The notes under the pieces: model-generated
Database searches by the model: none
What the model was told of the DNA's origin: nothing
The model's input: only the letters and a program-made list of their open reading frames with translations
Translations under genes and position numbers: made by a program
Shown here: piece by piece, positions 30,961 to 31,039 of the stretch
Position numbering within the stretch: position 1 is the stretch's first letter
How the letters are laid out: the number at the start of each line of letters is the position of its first letter
Assembly (NCBI GenBank): GCA_017531225.1
Contig: JAFXLL010000012.1
Span: 186,001-250,000, forward strand
DNA: 64,000 nucleotides
From: Bacteroidales bacterium
GTDB taxonomy: Bacteria; Bacteroidota; Bacteroidia; Bacteroidales; F082
Direction of reading: 5' to 3'

Positions 30961-31039
30961 CGTCATTGCGAGCGTAGCGAAGCAACCCTTCGATCGTCGA
31001 ATGAGGGTTGCTTCGTTGCTAATGTTCCTCGCAATGACG
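30961..31039. repeat. REP-type palindromic element, overlapping the start of a coding region
   Basis: Outer arms CGTCATTGCGAG (30961-30972) and CTCGCAATGACG (31028-31039) are perfectly complementary, as are inner arms CGAAGCAACCC (30978-30988) and GGGTTGCTTCG (31005-31015). The asymmetric bulges between arms are 5 bases (left) and 12 bases (right). This 'cgtcattgcgag...ctcgcaatgacg' element is a widespread mobile-like palindrome. Here its right arm is in frame with, and encodes, the signal peptide of the next gene. No second copy was noticed in the window. Confidence 0.88.

Follow-up and report, generated by a model that had tools for sequence, protein, structure and literature searches.

A palindromic DNA repeat has very probably been captured as the signal peptide of an OmpA-family protein in a Bacteroidales bacterium and may since have been tuned in that place, as judged from comparisons of the nucleotide sequence. 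The repeat was found in the window, by which we mean the whole stretch of 64,000 nucleotides that was analysed, and the host genome (designated G000) is a draft of 2.58 Mb in 14 contigs. The full element (30961..31039, plus strand, 79 nt) is a head-to-head pair of two CGTC-tagged units. It begins 17 bases past the stop codon of folD (methylenetetrahydrofolate dehydrogenase/cyclohydrolase; 30056..30943, plus strand, the first codon being presumed) and lies in the first codons of an 855-residue reading frame (30944..33511, plus strand), the product of which contains TPR, PD40 and C-terminal OmpA domains according to Pfam.

The left unit (30961..30988, plus strand) is of the short form (12+5+11 nt) and 93% identical to the short-unit consensus; the right unit (31005..31039, minus strand) is of the long form (11+12+12 nt) and 89% identical to the long-unit consensus. 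The outer arms (30961-30972 and 31028-31039) pair in 12 of 12 positions and the inner arms (30978-30988 and 31005-31015) in 11 of 11, in agreement with the position and the perfect arms given in a first-pass annotation of this DNA. Between them lie bulges of 5 bases on the left (30973-30977) and of 12 bases on the right (31016-31027). When compared with shuffled versions of itself, the element folds as RNA with −46.9 kcal/mol (z −8.2), a value that none of 200 shuffles equalled. The same annotation had proposed that the coding arm gained bases, an idea that fails because a spacer of 12 bases (also 9 or 11) is ordinary for the longer unit and because most full copies pair a short with a longer unit; the 5/12 asymmetry is thus a trait of the repeat family. 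Within the window, exact CGTCATTGCGAG arms are just the two of this element. Three further matches with 2 mismatches are within chance (5 at ≤2 mismatches as compared to 6.2 expected), the rest of the window contains nothing ≥72% identical to any of the four arm types, and Rfam yielded no match in 30700-31300 at E values up to 0.1.

Read on the plus strand, the right unit encodes (R)VASLLMFLAMT, the hydrophobic core of the predicted leader MMFRLNVIASVAKQPFDRRMRVASLLMFLAMTFFFAPFAMA (30944..31066, plus strand), and is followed in frame by FFFAPFAMA|Q. By inspection the leader has the features of a Sec signal peptide, namely a basic n-region, a hydrophobic core (KD 2.5) and A-x-A before the mature part, which suggests that the protein is exported via Sec and cleaved before Q42; after cleavage behind AMA the mature protein is expected to begin QEEGYAGYTPLFSPEFK. 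Most of the core is encoded by the arm: without the arm residues the best 11-residue window of the leader has a KD of only 1.48, with them one of 2.50, which bears out the earlier observation that the right arm reads as the start of a good signal peptide ending AMAQ. Nine repeat-free leaders of orthologues score KD 2.53-3.38, the repeat leader thus being just under their range. Among the six readings of the long-unit consensus a single one is strongly hydrophobic (KD 1.67, the next one having 0.72), and in the window copy this reading reaches 2.21.

Translation probably starts at the ATG at 30944..30946 (plus strand), directly after the TAA of folD (30941-30943), from where the frame is open through both arms, a fact absent from the first-pass annotation. 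The annotation had instead chosen the ATG at 31001..31003 (plus strand), which indeed lies in the centre of the element, one base ahead of the right arm and with stem on either side. In the relatives L003, L008 and L015 the start of the leader overlaps the folD stop and in G020 it follows four bases past it, which suggests coupled translation; in several other relatives a different gene is located upstream of the leader. A start at 31001, with the left arm and loop untranslated and the hairpin round the start regulating translation, appears unlikely, even if it would yield a compact leader of 22 residues, which is a usual length, and even if an open frame across the 19 upstream codons would not be unusual (about 0.4 from plain codon odds). 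The codon at 31001 is itself unpaired (probability 0.84, as compared to 0.65 for that at 30944), but its surroundings are mostly paired (mean unpaired probability 0.21 versus 0.54 at 30944), and it is the ATG at 30944 that abuts the folD stop. The earlier choice of start is therefore doubtful. With the start at 30944 the left unit reads NVIASVAKQP; unit and loop would then most likely be translated to form a long n-region, which is cut off along with the rest of the leader. The choice between the two starts makes no difference to the predicted mature protein.

We compared 105 distinct upstream stretches from four loci (OmpA 32, ApbE 30, GldH 30, GldD 13) with the four arm types in both directions. 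The choice of the four leader families followed from arms already observed in them; the ApbE and GldH loci were the best 30 of about 100 genomes, and a locus was excluded if it had no match close to the start, if it had <60 bases of upstream sequence or if its stretch duplicated another. An arm match of ≥82% was found in 11 of the 105 stretches (OmpA 2, ApbE 3, GldH 3, GldD 3), whereas the other 94 had ≤68%, and 68% was also the best match in 2100 mononucleotide shuffles. At the OmpA locus 30 of the 32 distinct leaders are unrelated to the repeat (≤63% arm identity), so that the alignment of orthologous loci proposed in the first-pass annotation revealed different leaders in relatives without the repeat. 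The two exceptions are G000 and G020, the right arms of which are 89% and 91% (32/35 bases) identical to the long-unit consensus. The OmpA leader of the nearest relative, G117 (L001/L254), is missing from the comparison because the contig begins at residue 51.

In G020 the right unit alone is present at the same site after folD: MKSLRIASLLMLLAMTLFIVPLAKAQ. An orthologue free of the repeat and yet carrying the same leader had been named as evidence against an exaptation, and G020 answers to half of this description; however, its leader is itself the right arm of the repeat, and the claim survives. With the right arm supplying the core, 30 of 32 leaders being unrelated and the arm being kept alone in G020, the repeat appears to have been exapted as a secretion signal, as had been surmised. 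That the leader predates the repeat and owes its resemblance to chance or convergence is extremely improbable. Leucine and alanine are abundant both in signal peptides and in the arm's reading, but an identity of 89-91% over 35 bases is far from what the shuffles and the other 30 leaders at the locus reach, on which grounds a chance likeness was rejected; G000 carries the left arm as well, and among the 32 leaders there was none that grades into the arm sequence without the repeat.

A tree from ApbE and GldH of 18 genomes has the topology (G020,(G000,G117)) with supports of 0.98 and 0.97. (The named assemblies closest to G000 belong to Bacteroidales and Bacteroidia, and several carry labels that point to ruminants.) Since the sister species G020 keeps the coding unit at the same site, the simplest reading is that the capture at the OmpA locus predates the split of G020 from the G000/G117 pair. 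We propose that in their common ancestor a CGTC-tagged palindrome inserted into the 5' end of a gene for an exported protein, where the leader is encoded, and that the long unit in one of its six frames gave (V/I)ASSLTLLAMT, a ready-made hydrophobic core, whereby export could continue and the repeat became the signal peptide. Later C-to-T changes would have raised the hydrophobicity (Ser to Leu, Thr to Met). In the line of G020 only the coding unit would have been left, and in G000 the full pair would be translated through from the ATG at 30944, the left unit forming the long n-region that is lost with the leader. The reverse order, with capture of just one unit, the state seen in G020, and a subsequent gain of the left unit in the line of G000, is rather less probable. 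Single units are common in G000, and the copies in the ApbE, GldH and GldD leaders are single units; however, in the sections of PMC3733652 drawn on here singletons of another REP family are described as remnants of dimers, and it is simpler to lose one arm than to gain one precisely.

The N-terminal part of the 855-residue protein has no Pfam hit. In all eight relatives whose junction was read (L002-L007, L010 and L015) the protein corresponds to two separate genes, the upstream one of which ends before the OmpA gene restarts with its own leader ahead of a -PKKA motif. In G000 and in L001 (apparently G117:C76) neither the stop nor the gap nor the second leader is present and the frames are joined at HPKKA, with the fusion point of the window protein (30944-33511) at about residues 318-330. 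With the downstream OmpA gene fused and its own leader gone, export of the OmpA domain in G000 would now depend on the leader derived from the repeat. The fusion as such does not require the repeat, since in G004 a single 837-residue frame covers the same span and has a native leader. The best NCBIfam hits of the window protein are of the CHU_0125 and PorE types, with which it has the TPR, PD40 and OmpA domains in common; it differs from them in that its scores, 240 of 620 and 188 of 600 bits, fall well short of the curated cut-offs, and in an additional N-terminal part that the relatives read encode as a gene of its own.

The repeat is not confined to this locus. G000 contains 30 exact CGTCATTGCGAG arms (reversed control pattern 0) at 21 sites, when arms within 150 bases count as one site, and two diverged copies (the ApbE copy and C13:52465) bring the total to 23 sites. 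G020 has 72 exact arms at 49 sites (reversed control 2) and G117 has 35 at 21 sites (reversed control 0). The pattern with a 12-base spacer was found at ≤2 mismatches in 21 of 100 genomes of the genus (reversed control 8 of 100; exact in 9) and the pattern with a 9-base spacer in 62 of 100 (control 7). The 135 distinct arms comprise 42 units of 35 nt, 35 of 28 nt, 25 of 34 nt, 15 of 32 nt and 18 of other lengths. Full copies in G000 usually combine a short with a longer unit, the tags pointing outward, and single units are also common. Most G000 copies read end with AATCCA, the window copy with AACCCT.

In 2013 Di Nocera et al. described CGTC-tagged REP repeats and named Bacteroidetes among the hosts (PMC3733652). 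From the sections of that paper drawn on here, the family in G000 agrees with these repeats in the unit end CGTC (or TGTC/CCTC), in the CCA tail of the consensus, which most G000 copies have, in dimers that are mainly head-to-head pairs of unlike units with the tags outside, single units being frequent too, in copies inside genes and in the lack of a transposase beside the copies examined, for which in G000 only the Y1 type was considered: in the 1954-3342 bases around each of the three Y1_Tnp ORFs of G000 no arm core was found. In contrast, a stem of 8-9 bp with a loop of 4-5 nt per unit is lacking; one unit type has a stem of only about 5 bp (ATTGC/GCAAT), and of five single units folded none formed an 8-bp stem and none folded better than its own shuffles. 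Because tag, tail, pairing and the absence of a Y1 neighbour agree and the stem does not, we call the family CGTC-REP-like. A RAYT-driven repeat of the GTAG REP type was rejected, the tag being CGTC and the surroundings of the Y1_Tnp ORFs being free of arms.

A search for repeats fused to other genes, as suggested in the first-pass annotation, revealed them in further leaders and inside genes. Counted by lineage and unit type, there are nine leader events in six gene families, OmpA included, the eight captures beyond OmpA being ApbE 2, GldH 2, GldD 2, SusD-like 1 and nuclease 1. Past the leader the proteins match their Pfam families (ApbE 3.5e-83, GldH 2.8e-34, SNase 2.8e-19, GldD 9.7e-61, SusD-like 5.3e-32). 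The ApbE leader contains a 35-nt unit in G000 and a 32-nt unit in G034/G075, the arm match being under 68% in the ApbE leaders of G117, G020, G089, G076 and G068. In the GldH leader of G000 there is a 35-nt unit, whereas GldH of G117, 98% identical past the leader, is without the arm; in G034/G075 a 34-nt unit in a different frame stands ahead of an intact native core. The GldD leader has a 32-nt unit in G034/G075, and that of G023, a genome outside the tree, matches the short unit in 23 of 28 bases. A SusD-like lipoprotein (G034) and a nuclease (G020) have a unit in their leaders, as judged from these two genes themselves. In six of the nine events, OmpA, ApbE twice, GldH of G000, GldD of G034/G075 and SusD-like, the unit is the main core of the leader.

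With respect to frequency, 37 of the 38 hits in G034 were read and 3 proved to be leaders (GldD, ApbE and SusD-like), as did 2 of the 49 sites in G020. No clear leader capture was seen in 32 of the 33 pattern hits of G012 and 28 of the 32 of G072 (frames ≥110 residues) or at the 21 sites of G117. The GldD leaders of G089 and G111 were not counted: they share CTCGCAATGAC with the arm but are only 68% identical over 28 bases, as is the best shuffle. Also uncounted were L441, L401, L179 and similar genes with a repeat in frame upstream of an intact native leader, because the real start may be downstream of the repeat. In L420 (G034), L179 (G117) and L401 (G072) in-frame repeats stand just ahead of native lipoprotein-type cores, and the annotated N-terminus of genes of this type may be encoded by the repeat or mis-called. 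L439 of G034 (662-1579, minus strand), without Pfam family, has a full repeat in a leader-like N-terminus, WIAALHCVSLAMTAVVLFITNPISA, and is a candidate only; its leader would need translation through both arms, since there is no methionine between them.

Within the 42 arms of 35 nt, the first spacer codon is TTG in only the OmpA copies (G000 and G020) and the ApbE copy (G000). In the GldH leader copy it is TCG, and TTG occurs in 0 of the 38 remaining arms, taken irrespective of their genomic context (Fisher p 0.004 with OmpA counted once, from a small sample). The change replaces serine by leucine. The third spacer codon is ATG (Met) in the same OmpA and ApbE copies and in one other arm (L183). 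These shared T substitutions fit selection for hydrophobicity; they could also be due to one source copy or to gene conversion.

Many copies of the repeat lie in frame within long ORFs, as has been described for rickettsial and other intragenic REPs (PMC3733652). Hosts supported by Pfam include EPSP synthase, TilS, a GDP-mannose/dTDP-glucose-dehydratase-like protein, DcuC, a HemN-like protein, a cytochrome c assembly protein, an inositol-phosphatase-like protein and NAD(P)H-hydrate dehydratase. The 23 sites of G000, sorted by eye with frames ≥100 residues, comprise 3 leaders, 5 gene-internal sites and 15 that are neither. NCBIfam gave no hit for two of the five internal hosts (L121 and L128); Pfam hits do exist for L434, to which L121 is very similar. 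If leaders are assumed to make up 2% or 5% of coding DNA, the probability of finding 3 of 8 in leaders is 0.0004 or 0.006, respectively, by a rough estimate, and better survival in leaders alone could explain the excess. The HflX-like L196 has its copy at the N-terminus and was not included among the internal cases, as the start may be downstream.

The aroA genes (EPSP synthase) of G000 (L126) and G117 (L180) contain the in-frame unit SSLRGASATKQS in an identical sequence context, and in the product of the G000 gene the Pfam match still extends across residues 5-399 of 407. L199 of G020, which is similar to tRNA-lysidine synthetase TilS, contains two in-frame elements with four exact arms, one element being N-terminal and the other lying ahead of the C-terminal domain. 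The GreA-like L119 (G000) and L175 (G020) have full repeats at corresponding places with different unit types and readings, which may be separate insertions or a replaced copy.

It is conceivable, at somewhat less than even chances, that the repeat is neutral in leaders, which tolerate almost any hydrophobic insert, and that its survival there reflects permissiveness with nothing being selected. The in-frame copies that persist in enzymes and transporters (AroA, the dTDP-glucose-dehydratase-like protein, DcuC and the HemN-like protein) indicate that the family often survives in coding DNA, and some leader copies, such as those of GldH in G000 and SusD-like in G034, are near the consensus. Against neutrality, the arm makes up most of the only hydrophobic core in six leader cases, so that export would need the arm even after a neutral arrival; G020 retains the coding unit only; and the OmpA and ApbE copies share hydrophobic substitutions. 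We regard capture followed by a gain in hydrophobicity as the best explanation overall.

That a repeat can encode part of a predicted leader is already known, since enterobacterial RU elements in predicted leaders were published by Delihas in 2007 (PMC2759123). According to the parts of that paper drawn on here, RU-2 encodes residues 1-30 of Y. pestis YPO1552, residues 1-41 of which are the predicted signal peptide, and the related proteins of other genera have unrelated leaders, just as is found at the OmpA locus; leaders were also predicted in the weaker cases of YPO2495 and YE2643 (PMC2759123, PMC2229807, in part). The RU elements are a different repeat from a different phylum and, in the parts cited, concern mostly small putative proteins and rest on software predictions, whereas here conserved families are compared with their orthologues, a sister species keeps the coding half and a fusion has removed the leader of a neighbour. 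The Rickettsial palindromic elements are likewise in-frame palindromes within unrelated conserved coding genes (PMC3733652, PMC2229807). They belong to another phylum, the parts of these papers drawn on mention no export role, and they are likened here by description and not by sequence. In the sections of PMC3733652 drawn on, the N-terminus of ORFs holds more copies than the end, many of them being treated as possibly untranslated, and Rickettsia proteins with an N-terminal RPE-1 are stated to be expressed; the phrase "signal peptide" is absent from its main text. The literature covered, which mostly excluded subscription papers, contained no report of this arm sequence, of the peptides it encodes or of a REP exapted as a signal peptide, nor a description of recurrence in conserved families, of retention of half an element or of a fusion with loss of a leader.

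The origin of new signal peptides is seldom witnessed; here related species have no repeat, the full palindrome or its coding half at one and the same site, and ApbE, GldH and GldD were each entered twice by different unit types. Our tentative suggestion, for which we would claim not quite even odds, is that in this genus the repeat family is a standing supply of portable export signals, its long unit being in one frame almost a whole signal-peptide core, for which the OmpA fusion, ApbE, GldH, GldD and the SusD-like lipoprotein have repeatedly given up their native cores, that selection tunes the copies and that a fusion can replace the leader of a neighbour. The loci constitute a natural set for testing mobile DNA palindromes as a source of export signals, and they call for caution in that N-terminal repeat peptides in annotations are not automatically mis-called starts. 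If the suggestion is true, the repeat would survive preferentially in signal peptides and would owe part of its persistence to them.
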